Positions 7,515 through 24,612 of a DNA stretch of 64,000 nucleotides are shown here, in pieces. The position numbers and the translations under genes are program-made. The DNA is taken from contig NZ_CP095187.1 in the NCBI RefSeq assembly GCF_022965755.1, positions 2,232,001 through 2,296,000 of the forward strand. Direction: 5' to 3'. This DNA comes from Pseudoxanthomonas sp. F37. GTDB lineage: Bacteria > Pseudomonadota > Gammaproteobacteria > Xanthomonadales > Xanthomonadaceae. The notes under the pieces were generated by a model. The model did no database searches. It worked only from the letters and a program-made list of their open reading frames with translations, and was not told where the DNA came from. Within the stretch, counting starts at the first letter, position 1. The number at the start of each line of letters is the position of its first letter.

Positions 7515-8495
<981 letters not shown>

Positions 8496-8579
8496 GGTGG
8501 CACCGGCAATGACGATGCGATCGTCATGGGGACGCGGACGGCCCGCTTCCACCCCGCGGGGCGGGACGCTGTATCCCGC

Positions 8580-9251
8580 CTAGCCCAGCAGGTCGAACGG
8601 CCCACCCTGCTCGAGCGCACGCTGATAGGCCGGTCGTGCGTGGATGCGCTGCAGGAAGCCGGCCAAGTTGGGATAGGCCCCCAGTCCGGCGCGTACCGCC
8701 GCGGCTTCGATCGGGAAGCTCATCTGGATGTCGGCCGCGCTGAACTGCTCGCCCGCGAACCACGGTGCCCTGCCCAGTTCGCTTTCCATGTAGCCCAGGT
8801 GCAGTTGCACCTGCGGACCGACGAAGGTCCGCATCGCCTTGTCGGCGATGCCGCGCGCGATGGGACGGGCGAAGAACGGCATGGGCGCCTTCTTCAGGCG
8901 GGAGAACACCAGGCTCAGCAGCATCGGCGGCATCGCCGAGCCTTCGGCGTAATGCAGCCAGTAGCGGTACCGCAGGTGTTCGGCCGTGCCGGGCGACGGG
9001 GCGAACCGGCGCGCGGCGTCGTAACGCTCCACGAGGTATTCGAGGATGGCAGCGGATTCGGCCAGGATGTATCCACCATCGGCCACCACCGGCGACTTGC
9101 CCAACGGGTGGATCTTCTTCAGCTCCGGTGGCGCGAGCAGGGTCTGCGGTTCGCGCTGGTAGCGCACCACGGTGTAGTCCAGGCCCAGTTCCTCGAGCAG
9201 CCAGAGCACGCGCTGGGAACGGGAGTTGTTGAGGTGGTGGACGGTGATCAT
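8580..9251 (-). CDS. Glutathione S-transferase family protein
   Basis: 223 aa. N-terminal thioredoxin-like domain with the opening MITVHHLNNSRSQRVLW, the cis-Pro motif GKSPVV and the glutathione-contacting ILAESAAILEYL. The C-terminal helical domain ends with AADIQMSFP and a helix common to GSTs. The Asn-Ser-Arg-Ser in the first loop places the probable catalytic Ser near residue 10-12, as in beta-like and fungal Ure2-like GSTs. Cytoplasmic. The IS110 element and its target repeat lie just upstream and separate it from selO. Confidence 0.88.
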   Translation of the reverse strand: MITVHHLNNSRSQRVLWLLEELGLDYTVVRYQREPQTLLAPPELKKIHPLGKSPVVADGGYILAESAAILEYLVERYDAARRFAPSPGTAEHLRYRYWLHYAEGSAMPPMLLSLVFSRLKKAPMPFFARPIARGIADKAMRTFVGPQVQLHLGYMESELGRAPWFAGEQFSAADIQMSFPIEAAAVRAGLGAYPNLAGFLQRIHARPAYQRALEQGGPFDLLG

Positions 9252-9295
9252 GCCGTTACTCCGTGGGGATGGGCCATGCTACCGCGGCTCTCATC

Positions 9296-9422
9296 CCGGT
9301 AGGAGCGACGTCAGTCGCGACCGGATGCAGCGGCCGTGTGTGACTCCGCTGCAGGCGCGAGGGCTCGGTGCCAAGTGTCCGCTCCCGCGAGTGTGGGCCG
9401 TGCGGTCGCGACTGACGTCGCT
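9296..9422. repeat. REP-like inverted pair, interrupted by the IS110 element
   Basis: Left arm GGTAGGAGCGACGTCAGTCG (from 9299) and right arm GGTCGCGACTGACGTCGCT (9404-9422) face each other about 80 bp apart. The right arm stops abruptly at 9422 and its missing end CCTACAGGG is found at 10562-10570, after the IS. A second, intact copy of the family lies at 14750-14866. Confidence 0.85.
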
Positions 9423-9445
9423 TGTGTCTATCGATTGGGTAGATT
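9421..9445 (+). promoter_or_regulatory. Half of a junction promoter, completed only in the circular IS form
   Basis: TAGATT at 9440-9445 is a plausible -10. The -35 is absent in the integrated copy. Joining the right end (TTGA, 10556-10559) to the left end (CT, 9421-9422) creates TTGACT exactly 17 bp upstream of that -10. This matches the known behaviour of IS110 elements, where the excised circle drives the bridge RNA and transposase. The predicted start is near 9452. Confidence 0.7.
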
Positions 9446-9451
9446 GCGTTG

Positions 9452-9600
9452 TGAGAGCGGAGTGCGGCAGCCCGATATGTCGCTGTGCGTTAGCACGTGT
9501 AGGAGTCCGGGGCGCCGCACTCCGTACTCCCATCTCAAGCCCGAACAGTTGCACGGATGGCAGTCCGCAGTACAAGCCAGGGATCGATGGGAGTGCTCTC
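9452..9600 (+). ncRNA. Predicted IS110 bridge RNA
   Basis: Two stem-loops lie between the left end and the transposase. Loop 1 (9459-9523) is closed by a perfect 10 bp stem GGAGTGCGGC/GCCGCACTCC. Inside it ATGTCGCT (9477-9484) matches the left target ACGTCGCT with one G-U-compatible change. A GTGC/GCAC hairpin follows, then TGTAGGAG (9498-9505), the exact reverse complement of the right target CTCCTACA. Loop 2 (9524-9596) is closed by an 11 bp stem with one wobble pair. It holds ACAGTTG (9545-9551), identical to the right IS end, and ACAAG (9572-9576), complementary to the left end. This is the order of target- and donor-binding loops described for IS621. The 3' end is approximate. Confidence 0.82.
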
Positions 9601-9625
9601 GCCCCTAGGCTACTACGGAGTGCGC

Positions 9626-10549
9626 ATGAATTCGTACGTCGGCATCGATGTCTCCAAGGACGAACTGGTCGTCCATGTCCTGCCCGCCCAGCAGGACCGC
9701 GTGTTTCCCAACACCGCTCAGGGTCTAGTCGGACTGGTCGGCTGGCTGCTGGAACTGGAAGGCTGCCGGGTTGCCTTCGAGGCCAGCGGCGGCTATGAAC
9801 GCGATCTGTTGGATGGACTGCACCAGGCCGGTGTGGCGGCCGTGCGTTTGCCGGCCCGGCGTCCACGCGATCTGGCCAGAGCGTTGGGCTTGAAGGCCAA
9901 GACCGATGCCCTGGATGCCCGCGTGCTGGCCCTGGCCGCGCAGATGCTGCCGGCCACTACCACGCCCCCTGCGACCGCTCCGATGCAGAACCTGCGCGAG
10001 TGGTTGCAACTGCGCACGGCCCTGGTGCAGGAGCGCGACAATCATCGGCGACGGATCCAGCAGGTGCGCCAAGCCTCTGTGCAGACCTTCCTGCGCTCGG
10101 TCATCGACAGCCTGCAACAGCGAATTGCCCAGGTCGAGCAGCAACTACGCTGCGCCCTTGAACGCTGTCCCGTCCAGATCGGCGCCGCGCCGGGACTGGG
10201 CCCGATCCTGCGTGCCACCCTGGCCGCCCGCCTGTCGGAACTGGGCCAGCTGGACCGGCGGCAGATCGCCTCCCTGGTCGGTCTGGCGCCCTACAACCGC
10301 GACAGTGGACGCTGGCGTGGTCAGCGCTGCATCGGAGGCGGAAGGGCCGATGTGCGACGCGTGCTCTACATGGCGACCTGGGCCGCCATCCGGGCACGCT
10401 CACCCCTGGCGCAGACCTACCAGCGGCTGGTAGCCGCAGGTAAACCCAAGAAGCTCGCAGTGACCGCCTGCATGCGCAAGTACCTGACCATGCTCAACGC
10501 CATGGCGCGCGATCAAGCGCCATGGGCGCCTGCTACGTCGACGGCCTAG
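9626..10549 (+). CDS. IS110-family transposase (bridge-RNA-guided recombinase)
   Basis: 307 aa. The N-terminal RuvC-like DEDD domain shows YVGIDVSKD (Asp8), AFEASGGYE (Glu52) and KTDALDA (Asp94, Asp97). The C-terminal transposase_20 domain holds GAAPGLGPI and the Ser-containing RDSGRWRGQ (Ser227, the likely catalytic serine), then ADVRRVLYMA. A helical linker (about residues 120-180) joins them. The length is normal and the reading frame intact, so the element may be active. Start ATG at 9626, with GGAG 5 nt upstream; upstream in-frame ATGs lie inside the bridge RNA. The stop codon is part of the right subterminal repeat. Confidence 0.93.
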   Translation: MNSYVGIDVSKDELVVHVLPAQQDRVFPNTAQGLVGLVGWLLELEGCRVAFEASGGYERDLLDGLHQAGVAAVRLPARRPRDLARALGLKAKTDALDARVLALAAQMLPATTTPPATAPMQNLREWLQLRTALVQERDNHRRRIQQVRQASVQTFLRSVIDSLQQRIAQVEQQLRCALERCPVQIGAAPGLGPILRATLAARLSELGQLDRRQIASLVGLAPYNRDSGRWRGQRCIGGGRADVRRVLYMATWAAIRARSPLAQTYQRLVAAGKPKKLAVTACMRKYLTMLNAMARDQAPWAPATSTA

Positions 10550-10561
10550 ACACAGTTGACT

Positions 10562-10570
10562 CCTACAGGG
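10562..10570. repeat. Right remnant of the interrupted REP-like repeat
   Basis: CCTACAGGG completes the palindrome broken at 9422: together the flanks read GACGTCGCTCCTACAGGG, the mirror of the left arm at 9296-9322. Confidence 0.8.
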
Positions 10571-10582
10571 AAACGATGCGAT

Positions 10583-12151
10583 TCAGGAGCTGCACGACAG
10601 CATCGAACAACCCGCGCGATCGCGTGCCCAGTCGGGGCGACGCCCGGCATAGCGCTCGCGGCCCGGCTGGTCGTCGTACGGCCGGCGCATGACGTCCAGC
10701 AGTTCATGGACGCCGGACAGGTCGCCCGCTTCGGCGGCTTCGATGGCCTGCTGGGCCAGGTAGTTGCGCAGCACGTAGCGGGGATTGGCCAGGCGCATGC
10801 GCTCGCGGCGCGCGCCGGCATCGAGCGCGTCCTCGTCGCGGCGGCGTGCGTATGCGGCCAGCCAGTCGCGCAGCGCCGGCGCGACGGCCTCGCGCTTCGG
10901 CGGATCGTAGAAGGCGTCATCGAAGGCCGACAGCGAGGCATCCGATGGATCCGCATCGATCAGCGCACGGAAGAACAGCGTCATGTCGACCTCGCCTTCC
11001 TGCAGGAGGCCGAGGAGGACTTCCATGCGCACGACATCTTCGTCGCGGCACTCGGCCAAGCCCAGCTTGCGTGCGATGTTGTCGCGATCGGCCCGCGCGT
11101 AGGCGTCGGCGAAGCGCTGCAACCCTTCCTGCAGGGCCTCCACTCCGTCCAACAAGGGCGACAGCGCCTGCGCGAAGCGGCTCAGGTTCCAGCCCGCCAC
11201 CCGCGGCTGCCAGCCGAAGCGATAGCGACGGCCCTGCGCGTCGGTCGTGTTCGGCGTCCAGTCCGGATCGTAGTTGTCGATCCAGCCGTAGGGGCCGTAG
11301 TCGATGGTCAGGCCGAGCACCGACATGTTGTCGGTGTTCATCACGCCATGCACGAAGCCCACGCGCATCCAGTGCGCCACCATCGCCGCCGTGCGTTCGC
11401 AGACCTCGGCGAACCAGGCCGCATAGAGCGACTCGCCTTCCCCCGCCAGGTGGGGAAAATCGCGCCGGATCGTGAAGTCCACCAGTGCGCGCAGCAGCTC
11501 CGTTTCGCCGCGCGAGGCCGGCAACTGGTAATGGCCGAAGCGCAGGAACGACGGCGCCACGCGGCACACGATCGCACCCGGCTCGGGCTGCGGATGGCCG
11601 TCGTAGAACATGTCGCGCACGACCTGCTCGCCCGTGCCGACCAGGCTCAAGGCCCGCGTGGTGGGCACGCCCAGATGGTGCATGGCCTCGCTGCACAGGA
11701 ACTCGCGGATCGAGGAGCGCAGCACCGCGCGTCCATCGGCCGTGCGCGAGTACGGCGTCGGTCCTGCGCCTTTGAGCTGCAGTTCCCAGCGTTCGCCGCG
11801 CGCATTGACCGCCTCGCCCAGCATGATGGCGCGGCCATCGCCGAGTTGCCCGGCCCAATGGCCGAACTGGTGGCCGCCATAGTTGCCGGCGTAAGGCCGC
11901 ATGCCGGACAGCAGCGCGTTGCCGCCGAACACCTGTGCGAATGCGGGAGACGCGACATCGGCGTCGTCCAGCCCCAGCAGCGCCGCCACTTCGCGCGAAT
12001 GCGCCAGCAGCGTCGGGGCGAGGACCGGCGTGGGGTCGGCCGGCGACCACAACGCGCCACGAACCTCGCGGCGCCGGGATCCCTGTTCCGGGTCTCCCGG
12101 CAGTTCGCGGACGAAGCGGTTGTCGAAGCGCAGGGCGTCCAGGCCGCTCAT
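10583..12151 (-). CDS. selO: Protein adenylyltransferase SelO (YdiU family)
   Basis: 522 aa pseudokinase-like enzyme that transfers AMP from ATP to Ser/Thr/Tyr of target proteins; E. coli SelO is linked to redox stress. Visible family motifs: [33 protein letters not shown] (nucleotide-binding Lys), [18 protein letters not shown], the metal-binding [10 protein letters not shown] and [10 protein letters not shown]. The C-terminus ends CSMLSCSS, the Cys-Ser-Ser tail where eukaryotic members carry selenocysteine. The protein is somewhat longer than the E. coli one (478 aa). The start ATG overlaps the trhO stop by 4 bp, so the two are coupled in one operon. Confidence 0.94.
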
Positions 12152-19381: not shown

Positions 19382-20470
19382 ATGCCTTCCGATACACCGC
19401 CGCCCGGCGCCGATCCGGCGCGCCACGCCCAACGCCTGCCGCGCCGGATCCACCGGCTGCGCATGCTGGGCATGGGCCTGGCGGCGTTGCCCATCGGCAT
19501 GGTGCTGCTGGAGAACCAGGCCGGCACCGGCCACTGGGGCTTCCTGCTGTTCACCACCGTGCTGTGGCCGCAGTTGGCGCTGTGGCTTGCGCTGCGCCAC
19601 CGCGAGCCCTTCCGCGGCGAGATCCGCAACCTGCTGCTGGATTCGATCCTGGCGGGGATGTGGGTACCGCTGATGGCATTCAACCTGCTGCCCAGCGTCA
19701 TGCTGGTGACCCTGGCCACGGTGGACAAGATCAGCACGGGCATCGACAGGCTCTGGTACTGGTCGCTGCCGCTGATGCTGGCCGGCGGCGTGGCGGCCGG
19801 GCTGATCACCGGTTTCGAGCTGCGGCCGGTCACCAGCATGGCGGTGATGATCGCCTGCCTGCCCATGCTGCTGATCCACTCCATCGCGGTCAGCCAGGCC
19901 AGCTACCGGCTCGTCCGCAAGGTGAAGCGCCAGAACCGCCAGTTGGACGAACTGAGCCGGCGCGACACCCTGACCGGCCTGGACAGCCGGCGGCACTGGC
20001 AGGAGCGCGCGTCCGCGCTGCTGGAACAGTGCGCGGCGACCGGCGACCCGGCCACGCTGCTGATGATCGACATCGACCACTTCAAGGCGATCAACGACCG
20101 CCACGGCCATGCGGCCGGCGACGACGTGCTGCGCGCAACGGCGGAAGTGATACGCCACAGCATCCGCGGGCAGGACGACGCGGGCCGGCTGGGCGGCGAC
20201 GAGTTCGCGGTGGTGCTGCGCCATACGGACGTGGAGGCGGCTGCCACGGTCGCCCGGCGCATCCGCGAAGGCGTGGAGGCGCTGCGCGTGCAAAGCGCGC
20301 CGGGGCTGCGGCCCACGGTGAGCCTGGGCCTGGCACAGGCCATGGCACCGCAGGAGGGGCTGCGTGCGTGGATGGAAGCGGCCGACCGCGCGCTTTACCG
20401 GGCCAAGAGCGCGGGCCGCAACCGGCTGGCGGTACACGAGGGCCTGGAAGCCTCCATCGACACCCCCTGA
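19382..20470 (+). CDS. Diguanylate cyclase with MASE2-like membrane sensor
   Basis: 362 aa. Residues about 25-180 form a membrane domain with the MASE2 signature (RMLGMGLAALPIGMVLLEN) and about five transmembrane segments. A short helical linker leads to a complete GGDEF domain: DTLTGLDSRRHW, LMIDIDHFKAINDRHGHAAGD and RLGGDEFAVVL (GGDEF at about 271-275). The inhibitory I-site RGQD sits five residues before GGDEF, so product feedback should work. It makes c-di-GMP at the inner membrane, like E. coli DgcC. It converges with a second cyclase gene. Confidence 0.92.
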   Translation: MPSDTPPPGADPARHAQRLPRRIHRLRMLGMGLAALPIGMVLLENQAGTGHWGFLLFTTVLWPQLALWLALRHREPFRGEIRNLLLDSILAGMWVPLMAFNLLPSVMLVTLATVDKISTGIDRLWYWSLPLMLAGGVAAGLITGFELRPVTSMAVMIACLPMLLIHSIAVSQASYRLVRKVKRQNRQLDELSRRDTLTGLDSRRHWQERASALLEQCAATGDPATLLMIDIDHFKAINDRHGHAAGDDVLRATAEVIRHSIRGQDDAGRLGGDEFAVVLRHTDVEAAATVARRIREGVEALRVQSAPGLRPTVSLGLAQAMAPQEGLRAWMEAADRALYRAKSAGRNRLAVHEGLEASIDTP

Positions 20471-20479
20471 GGCGGGGTG

Positions 20480-22294
20480 TCAGGCGCCGATGTGTTCGCT
20501 GCGTTCCCGCTGCGGCAGTTCCAGCACGTTGCTGGCGGCACGCGCCGGTTCGTGCTCGTGTTCGTTCTCGTGCACGCACACGCGGTTGCGGCCCAGGTGC
20601 TTGGCGCGGTAGAGCTGCCTGTCGGCATGGGAGAGCAGCTTTGCCAGGCTGTAGCCGGACTGCACGCTGGAGGTCACGCCGAAGCTGCCGGTGATGGCGA
20701 ACACGTGGCCGGTTTCGCGGGTGTCGAGCTGGGCCAGGCGCAGGCGGCAGTCTTCGGCCACGCGGGCGGCGGCGCGCAGGTCGCAGCCGTACATCAGGAT
20801 GGCGAATTCCTCGCCGCCCAGGCGGCCCAGCACGTCGATGCGCCGGCAGAAGCCCTTGCTGGCCTCGGCCACTTCCTTCAACGCCCAGTCGCCGGTGCCG
20901 TGGCCGAAGCGGTCGTTGATGTTCTTGAAGTGGTCCAGGTCGTACATGATCAGCGCGGCCTGTTCGCCGTTGCGGGCGCATTCGGCCAGCGCGCGCTCGG
21001 CGCGGATGGTGAAGTGGTGGCGGTTGCAGATGCCGGTCAGCGCGTCGGTCTCGGCCATCTTCTTCAGCGACAGCTGCACGCGCTTGATCTTGAACGCCCA
21101 GTAGCCGATGGATGCCACCAGCACGATCAGCAGCATCACGATCAGCCGGTTGTTCTGCGCCGCCTGCTGGTCCACCTTGCGCTGCAGCTGCAACACCTGG
21201 TTCTGCTGGTCCAGCAGGTTGATCTGCTGGGTCTTCTGCAGGGTTTCCTGGCGCACGATCTGGTAGGCCAGCTCGCGGGCCTTTACTTCGTTGAGGTAGG
21301 CCTTGTCGGCTTCGGCGTAGTTCCGGTAGGCCGCCAGCGCGGCATCCGAGTCTCCACGGCGATCCGCGATCTCGTAGATGGCCCGATACGCCTTTACCAA
21401 AGGCAAAGTCGTATTGAGACTCGCACTCTGCGCGATGGTATCAAGAGCATATCGCTCAGCTGCTGCTGCGTTGCCGTTCTCCAGCATCAGTTCGGCAAGG
21501 GTGGATTTTACCTCCGCCAAGAGACGCGGGTAACGCGTCCGCTCCATCTCCGGCAGGTATTTCTGCAGCAATGCGATCGCACCGGAGCGGTCGCCGTTGG
21601 CAGCCATCTTCTTTGCCAGAGTTATGCGGATCAGGTTCGCTGCCGCCATCTCACCGCTTGCAGCGCACATGTTGACGCCATCGACGATCTGCTTCTGCCC
21701 AGCGCTCAGCCGACCAAGATACTGTAGTGATTCGAGCTCCACCTGTTTTGCCAGGCATTGGGTGCGAGCATCGGGGCTGTCGCGCTGGATATTGAGCGCA
21801 TACTTGAGCGCAACCTCATGCTGGCCGATCTGGCTATTGATCAGTGCGGCAACACCCAGACCCTGATGCCTCAGTGCCTTCGACTTGACTTGATCGATGG
21901 CCCCGAGCGTTTGTTCAAGCTGCCTCAAGCCCTCGGTGAACTGCCTATTCACAGCATAGGCGTTCACTATCAGCGCTCCCACGCGAAAACGCATGTCCGG
22001 ATCTTTGGATGTATCAAACAACCTCTTGGCTGTATCGATGGCCAGGTCATGCTTTCCTTGGAACGCATACGAATAGGCGTTCAAGTACTGGATGCGTTCT
22101 CCTTCCGACTCGGTCGCAGAACCAGCCTGCTCGTTAAGCCTCTCCAGGATTCGCCGGAACTTGGCCGGATCGGCGCTACGGGCCGTCTCCGCCTGTTCAA
22201 GAAGGCGAGTCAGCGAATCGGACGCGCCAGCATCGAAGCTGGCGCATACGAAAGAGAAGAAGACAAGAGCAACTGCCGGCCTAAAGAACGTCAT
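20480..22294 (-). CDS. Diguanylate cyclase with periplasmic TPR-like sensor
   Basis: 604 aa. A signal peptide (residues 1-24) precedes a long helical, TPR-like region (about 25-320). A coiled coil rich in Gln (about 325-375), one transmembrane helix (about 380-402) and a GGDEF domain ending with GGEEF near residue 493-497 follow. The I-site RRID lies five residues upstream of GGEEF. It should make c-di-GMP in response to a periplasmic signal or partner. AGGAG precedes the ATG. The 5' half, encoding the sensor, is clearly less GC-rich than the cyclase half, which suggests a mosaic origin. It starts 38 bp after the putative borosin precursor gene and could share its transcript. Confidence 0.92.
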   Translation of the reverse strand: MTFFRPAVALVFFSFVCASFDAGASDSLTRLLEQAETARSADPAKFRRILERLNEQAGSATESEGERIQYLNAYSYAFQGKHDLAIDTAKRLFDTSKDPDMRFRVGALIVNAYAVNRQFTEGLRQLEQTLGAIDQVKSKALRHQGLGVAALINSQIGQHEVALKYALNIQRDSPDARTQCLAKQVELESLQYLGRLSAGQKQIVDGVNMCAASGEMAAANLIRITLAKKMAANGDRSGAIALLQKYLPEMERTRYPRLLAEVKSTLAELMLENGNAAAAERYALDTIAQSASLNTTLPLVKAYRAIYEIADRRGDSDAALAAYRNYAEADKAYLNEVKARELAYQIVRQETLQKTQQINLLDQQNQVLQLQRKVDQQAAQNNRLIVMLLIVLVASIGYWAFKIKRVQLSLKKMAETDALTGICNRHHFTIRAERALAECARNGEQAALIMYDLDHFKNINDRFGHGTGDWALKEVAEASKGFCRRIDVLGRLGGEEFAILMYGCDLRAAARVAEDCRLRLAQLDTRETGHVFAITGSFGVTSSVQSGYSLAKLLSHADRQLYRAKHLGRNRVCVHENEHEHEPARAASNVLELPQRERSEHIGA

Positions 22295-22332: not shown

Positions 22333-22611
22333 TTACTCCTGCGGGGACTCTTCTTCCCCTTGTTCATCACCGTCCGGCAAATTCTCGTCCTCGCGCGCCG
22401 GCTCCTGATCTGGGGCCCAGATCATGCACATCATTGCCGCTCGCCCCCCCATTGCTTCGCTGAGCATAGCGACATCCCTCAAGGTGAGGGCCTCACGCTG
22501 CGCCTCATCGATCTGCAAAGCGGCGACCTCAGCAGCGTAGGTCTCAGAAGACACGTCCTGAGACCTGCTTCCCAATGACTCAAGAAAACCGACTACGTCC
22601 GTCACGTGCAT
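22333..22611 (-). CDS. Putative split-borosin precursor peptide
   Basis: 92 aa from ATG at 22611, or 90 aa from GTG at 22605. AGGGG abuts the ATG but sits 6 nt from the GTG, so the GTG may be the true start. Residues 4-55 are predicted helical (DVVGFLESLGS, EAQREALTLRDVAMLSEAMG), like the substrate-binding domain of borosins; the ALTLRDVAMLSEAM stretch resembles the clasp region of OphMA. A hydrophobic segment RAAMMCMIWAP (57-67) follows as the probable methylated core. The tail (68-92) is very acidic. It is encoded 172 nt downstream of the borosin-type methyltransferase on the same strand. No peptide product is proven. Confidence 0.75.
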   Translation of the reverse strand: MHVTDVVGFLESLGSRSQDVSSETYAAEVAALQIDEAQREALTLRDVAMLSEAMGGRAAMMCMIWAPDQEPAREDENLPDGDEQGEEESPQE

Positions 22612-22783
22612 CCCCTAATCTAGATGAAATTCGCAAGCACAAACCCAGATTCCGACAACCGGCATCTGGCCCCCGTAAGGGGAAAGGAAGCACCCCCGCC
22701 ACCATTTCCCCTTCTGTTACAAGACATTACCGGCTTTTGTCGGACGTTGCCACTAGGTTGCCTGGCTTTCCAACCCCTCCATC

Positions 22784-23569
22784 CTACGGAAGGCCCATGA
22801 GGGATTGGAGGCGACTGACCACCAAATCATTGGGCGTCATCGGCTGAGATGGCTCCACTACCAGGGTGCTGGCCGGCGAAAGGGTTACCTCCACAAGCTG
22901 TTTCAGGCCGCATTTGACTATCCGCGGCCGGCTAATGGGCAAGGTTGCTGCTTCATAGATGACTAGCGGATGCCCAGGGGGATAGTGCTCTGAAAGCAGT
23001 TCCACCAGCACTTCACGAATTTTGGGGCCCGTGGAGAGCTTGGCGAAACTGTTGTCCCCCGCCACCCCGATCTGCCACAGGATAAGGTAGGCCGAAGGGT
23101 CGATCCGCCGCTGGTAGAACATGAACTGGCTGGCCTCGTAGTGCTGGCAGCCATAGGTACCGGGATCGATCCCGAGGTCCGCATACAGGCAATCCTCGGC
23201 GGATACCGCGGCCTCCATGACCGCCTCGTACCCTTCCTCCCGCGCCTGGGTCACCGCCCGGTGCGGCACGACGGCGAACACGCCCGGATGACCGTAGAAC
23301 GCGCCGCAGACCCGACGTCCCGCCCGCACCTCTTCCATCATGGCCGCTACCATCTCGCGGTAGGTCTCGGTCCGCGGCTTGCCCTCGGCATAGAACGGCT
23401 GAAGACTGCGCACGTCCCGGTTCATGCCCTGTACCCACAACTCCACCAGTGGATCGGACACCGCCACGAACACCACGTCGGCTTCTTCGATATGACTGCG
23501 CGCACGCGGCCCGATATGCGCGCCCAGCATCATGCCGGTGCCCACGCAGGCCAGACTCCCCTTCTTCAT
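22784..23569 (-). CDS. Borosin-type peptide backbone alpha-N-methyltransferase
   Basis: 261 aa, tetrapyrrole-methylase (TP-methylase) fold. The SAM-binding GTG near residue 10-12, FYGHPGVF (91-98) and AVSAEDCLYADLGIDP (121-136) are hallmarks of the OphMA/SonM borosin group rather than of precorrin methylases. Tyr60, Arg66, Tyr70 and Tyr92 fall at a constant offset of six from the OphMA catalytic residues Tyr66, Arg72, Tyr76 and Tyr98. The protein ends where fungal borosins continue into a fused precursor, so it should act on a separate peptide, the small protein encoded downstream. AGGGGAC precedes the ATG by 5 nt. The GNAT gene ends 18 bp upstream. Confidence 0.9.
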   Translation of the reverse strand: MKKGSLACVGTGMMLGAHIGPRARSHIEEADVVFVAVSDPLVELWVQGMNRDVRSLQPFYAEGKPRTETYREMVAAMMEEVRAGRRVCGAFYGHPGVFAVVPHRAVTQAREEGYEAVMEAAVSAEDCLYADLGIDPGTYGCQHYEASQFMFYQRRIDPSAYLILWQIGVAGDNSFAKLSTGPKIREVLVELLSEHYPPGHPLVIYEAATLPISRPRIVKCGLKQLVEVTLSPASTLVVEPSQPMTPNDLVVSRLQSLMGLP

Positions 23570-23587
23570 CTCGTCCCCTGTTTCAGA

Positions 23588-24175
23588 TCATTCGGATGGC
23601 GCAGTCTTGGGCGCCCTCGTTTGCATACCGCCGGCGCGTTGCCAGCGCCGACGGGTCCGCTCCCAGCGCACTTCCCCGCCCTTACTCCCCTCGGCGGGAA
23701 TACGTCGGAAATCCAGCTTCCGCATCAGACCTTCCGCGCCCCCATTCACCGTCCGATGGCGAGTGAACACCGTATCCACCCCACCCTCGGAGAACGCGAA
23801 GTCCATCAGTCGGCGGATGATCTCGGTCGCGACACCGGCATTGTGGTACTGCGGCCAGATCAGCGCGCCGATCTCGGAGCCGCCCTCCCGCGCGACCAGT
23901 GCAAGCAGCCCCCATTCCTCGCCCGTCGAACGATCCACGACCACCCAGGCCTGATAGCCGCCATCCGTTCTCTGAGTGAATGCCAGCACCTTGTCAAAGG
24001 CACTGCGCGCCGCCGGAAGTGTCAGCGCATCACCCACGTGCCGCATTACCTCAGCGTTTGTGTAGAGCGCGATGTAGAGCCCGTCGTCGTGCGCCTTGAG
24101 GGGTCGAAGGCGGAACCGGGCGGTTTCAAGCGGGAGTGCTCCTAGTGGCGGGGCACCAGTGATGCATCCACTCAC
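23588..24175 (-). CDS. GNAT family N-acetyltransferase (RimJ/RimL type)
   Basis: 195 aa from a GTG start that overlaps the trxC stop in a GTGA, which implies coupled translation. Opening LETARFRLRPLKAHDDGLYIALYTNAEVMRHVG, the acetyl-CoA loop region ALIWPQYHNAGVATEIIRRLMDFAF and TVFTRHRTVNGGAEGLMRKLDFRR fit the RimL-like subgroup, which acetylates protein N-termini or small amines. The basic C-terminus (WERTRRRWQRAGG) is unusual. GC content is like the chromosome average. It sits 18 bp upstream of the borosin methyltransferase, so it may modify the peptide, but it could equally belong with trxC. Confidence 0.82.
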   Translation of the reverse strand: MSGCITGAPPLGALPLETARFRLRPLKAHDDGLYIALYTNAEVMRHVGDALTLPAARSAFDKVLAFTQRTDGGYQAWVVVDRSTGEEWGLLALVAREGGSEIGALIWPQYHNAGVATEIIRRLMDFAFSEGGVDTVFTRHRTVNGGAEGLMRKLDFRRIPAEGSKGGEVRWERTRRRWQRAGGMQTRAPKTAPSE

Positions 24176-24612
24176 CCCACCTGCCCCCGCGCCCACCGCA
24201 CAATCGCCTCCGCCGGCATCGCGCCGCTCTGGCGCGCGATCTCGCGGCCGCCCTGCAACAGCACCATGGTCGGGATGCTGCGGATGCCGAACCGGTTGCC
24301 CAGTCCCGGGCTGGCCTCGGTGTCCACCTTGGCCAGCCGCATCGTGGGCTCCAGCAACCCGGCGGCGCGCTGGAAGTGCGGCGCCATCTGCAGGCACGGG
24401 CCGCACCAGGGCGCCCAGAAATCCACCAGCAGCGGCAAGGTGCCGCGCAGCGCGTGGCGGTCGAAATCCGCCTCGCCCAGCGCCAGCGGCATGCCGGTGA
24501 ACAACGGATGGTGGCAGCGCCCACAGGCGGGGGCCTCCGCCAGGCGCGCCAGCGGCACCCGGTTCATCGCGGCGCAGTGCGGACAGGCGATCAGGGGGTC
24601 TTCGGCGCTCAT
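24172..24612 (-). CDS. trxC: Thioredoxin TrxC (thioredoxin 2)
   Basis: 146 aa. An N-terminal zinc-binding module with two Cys pairs (CPHC and CGRC, residues 10-13 and 30-33) precedes a thioredoxin domain with active site WCGPC (near residues 69-73) and the cis-Pro loop RSIPT. TrxC reduces disulfides in the cytoplasm and resists oxidative stress. Its stop overlaps the start of the GNAT gene, making it the first gene of a possible trxC-GNAT-methyltransferase transcript. Confidence 0.93.
   Translation of the reverse strand: MSAEDPLIACPHCAAMNRVPLARLAEAPACGRCHHPLFTGMPLALGEADFDRHALRGTLPLLVDFWAPWCGPCLQMAPHFQRAAGLLEPTMRLAKVDTEASPGLGNRFGIRSIPTMVLLQGGREIARQSGAMPAEAIVRWARGQVG

Follow-up and report, generated by a model that had tools for sequence, protein, structure and literature searches.

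What bacterial borosins do for the cells that make them is largely open in the literature, and borosin types IV to X are bacterial and widespread (available text of PMC11285071). A locus of Pseudoxanthomonas sp. F37 (contig NZ_CP095187.1, assembly GCF_022965755.1, a 3.97-Mb genome in a single contig) poses this question in a concrete form, in that genes for a borosin-type peptide methyltransferase (MT) and a separate small precursor are followed by one for a membrane-bound GGDEF protein. Within the window, the whole stretch of 64,000 nucleotides that we analyzed, four minus-strand genes lie in the order GNAT, MT, precursor, and GGDEF protein, with gaps of 18, 172, and 38 nt. An earlier note on this DNA had the first three genes right, with every feature it named in the place it gave, but its range ended short of the fourth, the GGDEF protein that begins past the precursor stop. 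The computed gene identities, the linkage, the fusion in relatives, the co-occurrence, and the GG[DE]EF motif led us to read the locus as a split borosin with a signaling receptor. The locus is likely to belong to the type IV (split) borosins, with a link to a membrane signaling receptor that is here a diguanylate cyclase. Its chemistry, backbone methylation, is likely; the direction of signaling is hypothetical.

To establish what the MT is (22784..23569, 261 aa; PF00590, 76 bits; TP_methylase fold, carrying FYGHPGVF and VSAEDCLYADLGIDP), we searched its sequence against 177,635 distinct sequences of the Protein Data Bank (PDB). The top six matches, whose deposited names are TP-methylase family protein, alpha-N-methyltransferase, or SonM, were SonM sequences or variants (E values of 6.6e-72 to 3.5e-71), and the next 19 were borosin sequences of the OphMA/dbOphMA type (1.9e-49 to 7.8e-46), which we take to be fungal. 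The best tetrapyrrole enzyme, a precorrin-2 methylase, reached only 0.05. The borosin-type identity proposed in the earlier note therefore held up, the SonM match (7e-72) lying far ahead of the tetrapyrrole methylases, and at that E value a chance match to borosin enzymes is excluded. MT residues 4 to 254 aligned with SonM 2 to 255, and at 261 aa the protein is too short to hold a clasp or core as well, which agrees with the discrete enzyme (~263 aa, no fused core) of type IV split borosins.

The active site pointed in the same direction. In the PDB alignment, Tyr60, Arg66, Tyr70, and Tyr92 of the MT fell on SonM Tyr58, Arg67, Tyr71, and Tyr93, and each of the four recurs in at least 90% of the 35 MT sequences compared, that of the window included. 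Mutation of these SonM residues lowers activity, least so for Tyr93 (PMC8429565, available text). The constant offset of six from the corresponding OphMA residues, as given in the earlier note, fits the mutant names in PDB titles (Y66F, R72A, Y76F, and Y98A) as well as the dbOphM match (MT 2 to 231 on dbOphM 8 to 237). We then built a tree of 62 rows, comprising 60 borosin-type sequences (the window MT and SonM among them; L130 was left out) and the two other TP-type methylases of the genome. In this tree, 26 of whose 58 inner branches are open, the 60 borosin-type rows stood together and the other two were split off by a long branch with a support of 99. Thus, the grouping with precorrin or diphthine methylases that would have spoken against a borosin enzyme was absent, the comparison rows being the genome's own two TP-type methylases, with no diphthine methylase among them. 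The rows nearest the window MT in the tree were MTs of Pseudoxanthomonas, the genus of the host, whose genes are ordered in the same way. The MT gene is present in a single copy in the host genome, and its product has no transmembrane segment by hydrophobicity. It is very probable that the enzyme methylates the backbone of its small partner protein.

That partner (22333..22611, minus strand) is 92 aa long from its ATG or 90 aa from a GTG two codons later, in line with the 90 to 92 aa of the earlier note. It comprises a leader resembling a borosin-binding domain (residues 1 to 57), a predicted core, MMCMIWAPD (residues 60 to 68; 22408..22434, minus strand), and an acidic tail (residues 69 to 92). 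Searching the PDB with this one sequence gave no match, and we therefore used a profile of its family. The top seven matches of the profile were SonA sequences (E values of 0.002 to 0.02), with the next match at 0.62. The family aligned to SonA 1 to 68 without a gap, and this alignment, with the column counts, defines the predicted core and places Met63 and Trp65 on the methylated residues 63 and 65 of SonA. The related precursor of L067, with its repeated core-like units, also bears on the prediction of the core. The structure model of the precursor gave weak fold matches to OphMA. Pfam found LigA in 7 of 50 aligned precursors, weakly (best E value, 0.058), and in all 8 precursors of the fused class described below (best E value, 4e-5).

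Because the profile was trained on the window, on L031 to L080, and on nine of L001 to L030 (L numbers denote the compared loci), matches in those loci are not independent. Outside the training set, we found the precursor in 31 of 40 loci (L092 to L131). It was also present in 79 of the best 80 named loci, some of them from the same species as the training genomes, and a precursor-like gene occurred in 79 of the 91 scanned loci. The separate precursor postulated in the earlier note is thus kept in the locus, matches SonA by profile, and resembles OphMA weakly in fold, and its leader, by the latter two lines of evidence, is that of a type IV precursor. Taken together, these comparisons support assigning the MT and precursor to the type IV split borosins as a new member.

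Several precursors depart from this pattern. L042, L047, L048, and L066 carry two or three precursor genes each. In L067, which lacks a GGDEF neighbor, the precursor gene (7998-8333, plus strand) lies upstream of the MT gene and contains four copies of a core-like unit; it may encode a multicore borosin. In L167 (Luteibacter) and L169 (Dyella), the leader is kept, but the tails, which contain GTQMPS repeats or proline-rich runs, look very unlike the Lysobacteraceae core. In L183 and L202 (Steroidobacteraceae), the MT frames of 452 to 485 aa extend far beyond the MT domain, and the precursors end in long lysine-rich tails.

The fourth gene (20480..22294, minus strand) encodes a 604-aa protein whose GGDEF domain (PF00990, 138 bits) has the signature of a diguanylate cyclase, with an intact GGEEF motif and RRID upstream of it. 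A signal segment and one transmembrane helix are predicted. In the structure model (pLDDT, 92), a long helix (residues 316 to 415) encloses the hydrophobicity maximum at residues 383 to 403 (21086..21148), the predicted transmembrane segment, so that the helical-solenoid sensor (residues 22 to 312; 21359..22231) would lie in the periplasm and the GGDEF domain in the cytosol. Cys180 and Cys210 of the sensor are strongly conserved. The comparison of the GGDEF proteins had three exceptions, namely L047 and L048, where the gene compared was another GGDEF gene (see below), and L073, whose amino-terminal frame is broken. We call the sensor TPR-like because of the model, its fold matches, and TPR hits in a relative; Pfam found no TPR in the window sensor itself. 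The fold matches included the pheromone receptors Rap and NprR, level with other TPR proteins. RRNPP receptors are cytoplasmic, with DNA-binding or phosphatase output, whereas the window protein has a GGDEF output, a signal segment, and a transmembrane helix. Sensor-cyclases of the same type also occur in L212, L213, and L214 with no MT or convincing precursor nearby; these may be orphan receptors or belong to a wider family.

Is the cyclase gene a constant partner of the borosin genes? We scanned 91 loci (the window, 50 from the family, and 40 from the order and class), counting a GGDEF or GNAT gene as linked if it lay no more than 1.7 kb from the MT gene and in the same orientation or, for GGDEF, was fused to it. 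A GGDEF protein was linked to or fused with the MT in 81 of 93 MT instances (66 downstream, 7 upstream, and 8 fused), and GG[DE]EF was intact in all 81. The upstream cases include L047 and L048, where another GGDEF gene lies nearer than the downstream sensor-GGDEF gene, L066, which has one on either side, and L113, where it sits between two MT genes. The 12 instances without GGDEF were L067, L068, L070, L079, L080, L111, and L125 to L130, with L070 so counted because a contig end breaks off the sensor match just past the MT. Among the best 80 named loci, chosen from 579 confirmed stretches and biased to close relatives, 77 had the GGDEF gene and 49 had a GNAT gene near the MT; the genera represented include Pseudoxanthomonas, Lysobacter, Luteimonas, Arenimonas, Dyella, Rhodanobacter, Luteibacter, Rheinheimera, Alkalimonas, Arsukibacterium, and Povalibacter. 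Given 32 GGDEF domains in the 3.97-Mb host genome, linkage by chance is unlikely, even though the genomes are related.

Co-occurrence across the order gave a similar picture. At E value cutoffs of 1e-15 and 1e-6, 136 of 299 genomes had both sensor and MT, 19 had the sensor only, 7 had the MT only, and 137 had neither; the table takes two samples of 299 genomes as identical, and both single-gene counts are affected by these cutoffs and by incomplete genomes. In a family sample, the sensor was found in 46 of 119 genomes, all 46 of which also had an MT match, which we treat as a lead only.

The arrangement of the genes varies. The order MT-precursor-cyclase is found in the window and in most of the other loci examined, and L097, L103, and L105 have precursor-cyclase-MT as separate genes. 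In eight loci (L071 to L078), the precursor is followed by sensor, GGDEF domain, and MT as one chain, with the sensor frame broken in L073. The order in L110 is precursor, a 986-aa protein (7974-10934, minus strand), MT, and sensor-GGDEF. With HisKA, HATPase_c, and Response_reg domains, the 986-aa protein is a hybrid histidine kinase, and its first 370 residues resemble the fused-class sensor (30% over 345 aa; E value, 1e-28). By its sequence, then, L110 is a kinase-output version of the borosin-sensor system, which implies that the sensor type is retained next to the borosin genes even as the output varies. In the MT tree, the fused chains grouped as a single clade (support, 99), to which L103, L105, and L110 attach (support, 100). 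Another borosin architecture of the same bacterial family is, to judge from the frames, represented by L079 (6472-8013, plus strand) and L080 (minus strand), with MT frames of 450 to 513 aa, a C-terminal extension, and no GGDEF neighbor.

How might such a unit work? The helical precursor leader would dock on the MT homodimer. Using S-adenosylmethionine, the MT would add methyl groups to core backbone amides, proceeding from the N toward the C terminus, with Met63 and then Trp65 as the most likely sites. Docking and stepwise methylation are well founded by homology, and we infer methylation and its sites from the alignments. The GNAT protein may cap the methylated product. As a hypothesis, the product, either a peptide or the whole methylated protein, would bind or regulate the TPR-like sensor and so change the level of cyclic di-GMP (c-di-GMP). 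More broadly, we tentatively propose that bacterial borosins of this group serve as peptide signals. The N-methylated product would be the ligand of a TPR sensor, Rap-like and periplasmic, that is coupled across the membrane to an output that varies, usually a diguanylate cyclase but in one locus a histidine kinase as well.

It is also conceivable, if somewhat unlikely, that the locus makes an ordinary split borosin that is secreted as a natural product, with the GGDEF gene acting only on its expression or having been inherited alongside it without direct contact. Such genomes contain many GGDEF genes (that of the window, as noted, 32), and MT loci without GGDEF do occur (L067, L068, L111, and L125 to L130). 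Against this, GGDEF and MT share one chain in the eight fused loci (one of them, L073, with a broken sensor frame), and the sensor and MT co-occur across the order. Likewise, the thioredoxin and TPR-transglutaminase flanks change between loci while the unit persists. The same sensor type with a kinase output in L110 slightly lowered our estimate for the neighbor-only explanation and slightly raised that for peptide signaling. That the MT has nothing to do with peptides and is a methylase of the tetrapyrrole or diphthine type, for which one could cite the shared TP_methylase fold and the NCBIfam matches (such families only, all far under the cutoffs), is extremely improbable in the face of the SonM match, the tree with the genome's own two other TP-type methylases, and the active-site residues. 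A precorrin or RsmI-type methylase was rejected on the NCBIfam scores, the PDB E values (0.05 versus 7e-72), and the branch support of 99.

Two further explanations keep the partners and change their roles. Rather than a peptide precursor, the small protein may be a stable regulator that is never cleaved and acts through its methylated stretch as part of the whole protein. The long acidic tail past the core is consistent with this idea, and by eye we recognized no protease or transporter in the six clusters found in at least 10 loci, where a crude longest-open-reading-frame caller could hide genes. The four core-like units of L067 and the multiple precursor genes of L042, L047, L048, and L066, features of many precursors of ribosomally synthesized and posttranslationally modified peptides, argue against it, and we regard it as unlikely. 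Less probable still is the reverse direction, in which the cyclase responds to some other signal and controls the MT, both having to be dimers, and the methylated protein is the output. GGDEF domains act as dimers, and the fused form holds both enzymes in one chain. SonM is likewise an active homodimer (PMC8429565, available text). Yet the window, like most examined loci, encodes the MT as a protein of its own, in the window's case without a transmembrane segment, the MT has no sign of c-di-GMP binding, and the L110 sensor is also paired with a kinase.

Comparison with known systems places the locus closest to SonM-SonA of Shewanella oneidensis, with which it shares an unfused MT that has all four active-site residues, a separate small precursor whose helical leader matches SonA by profile, and the predicted register of methylated residues. 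It differs in the acidic tail after the core and in the MT-precursor-cyclase order with GNAT upstream (PMC8429565, available text). A GGDEF partner is present in the locus. The fungal OphMA and dbOphMA resemble it in the MT domain (E values of 2e-49 to 8e-46) and weakly in precursor fold, but there the MT and core form one chain. A GGDEF domain within a borosin architecture has already been drawn (PMC11395268, Fig. 1 legend), and the fused L071 to L078 are probably of this type. Going by that legend, the window differs in that its cyclase is a separate gene rather than part of a borosin protein, in gene order, and in a diverged precursor family with a tail. Compared with Rap and NprR, the window sensor is predicted to be periplasmic, membrane anchored, and joined to GGDEF, and other TPR proteins match it equally well. 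In RcbB of Vibrio vulnificus, an N-terminal TPR domain represses a C-terminal GGDEF cyclase, and a partner can release it; the domain order resembles that of the window protein, whereas RcbB is predicted to be cytoplasmic, its partner is another TPR protein, and the available text mentions no borosin genes (PMC12282931).

Our literature search found no account of a borosin with diguanylate, c-di-GMP, or Xanthomonadaceae, nor of an unfused borosin with a sensor-cyclase or a signaling role; two key borosin surveys lay outside its scope, so priority is uncertain. The linkage, fusion, and co-occurrence with one sensor family give bacterial borosins a concrete, testable function, suggested to be the control of c-di-GMP or another receptor output. 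If the peptide-signal proposal is true, Gram-negative bacteria would possess a circuit leading from a peptide to c-di-GMP, and backbone N-methylation could allow the peptide to cross membranes without a dedicated exporter. The compact enzyme and short core containing Met, Trp, and Cys could also be of use for backbone N-methylation chemistry.

The remaining genes frame the unit. The GNAT N-acetyltransferase (Acetyltransf_3; 23588..24175, minus strand; PF13302, 81 bits), a possible tailoring enzyme, ends 18 nt before the MT start, as reported. Its start overlaps by 4 nt the stop of a thioredoxin-2-like gene (24172..24612, minus strand; PF00085 and PF21352), which is probably on the same transcript here and lies outside the conserved unit, having been matched in 11 of 51 compared loci, the window included. 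On the other side, a second GGDEF protein of 362 aa (19382-20470, plus strand) is encoded convergently with the cyclase gene, 9 nt past its stop, and an opposite-strand GGDEF gene occupies the corresponding place in several close relatives, e.g., L031 to L035.
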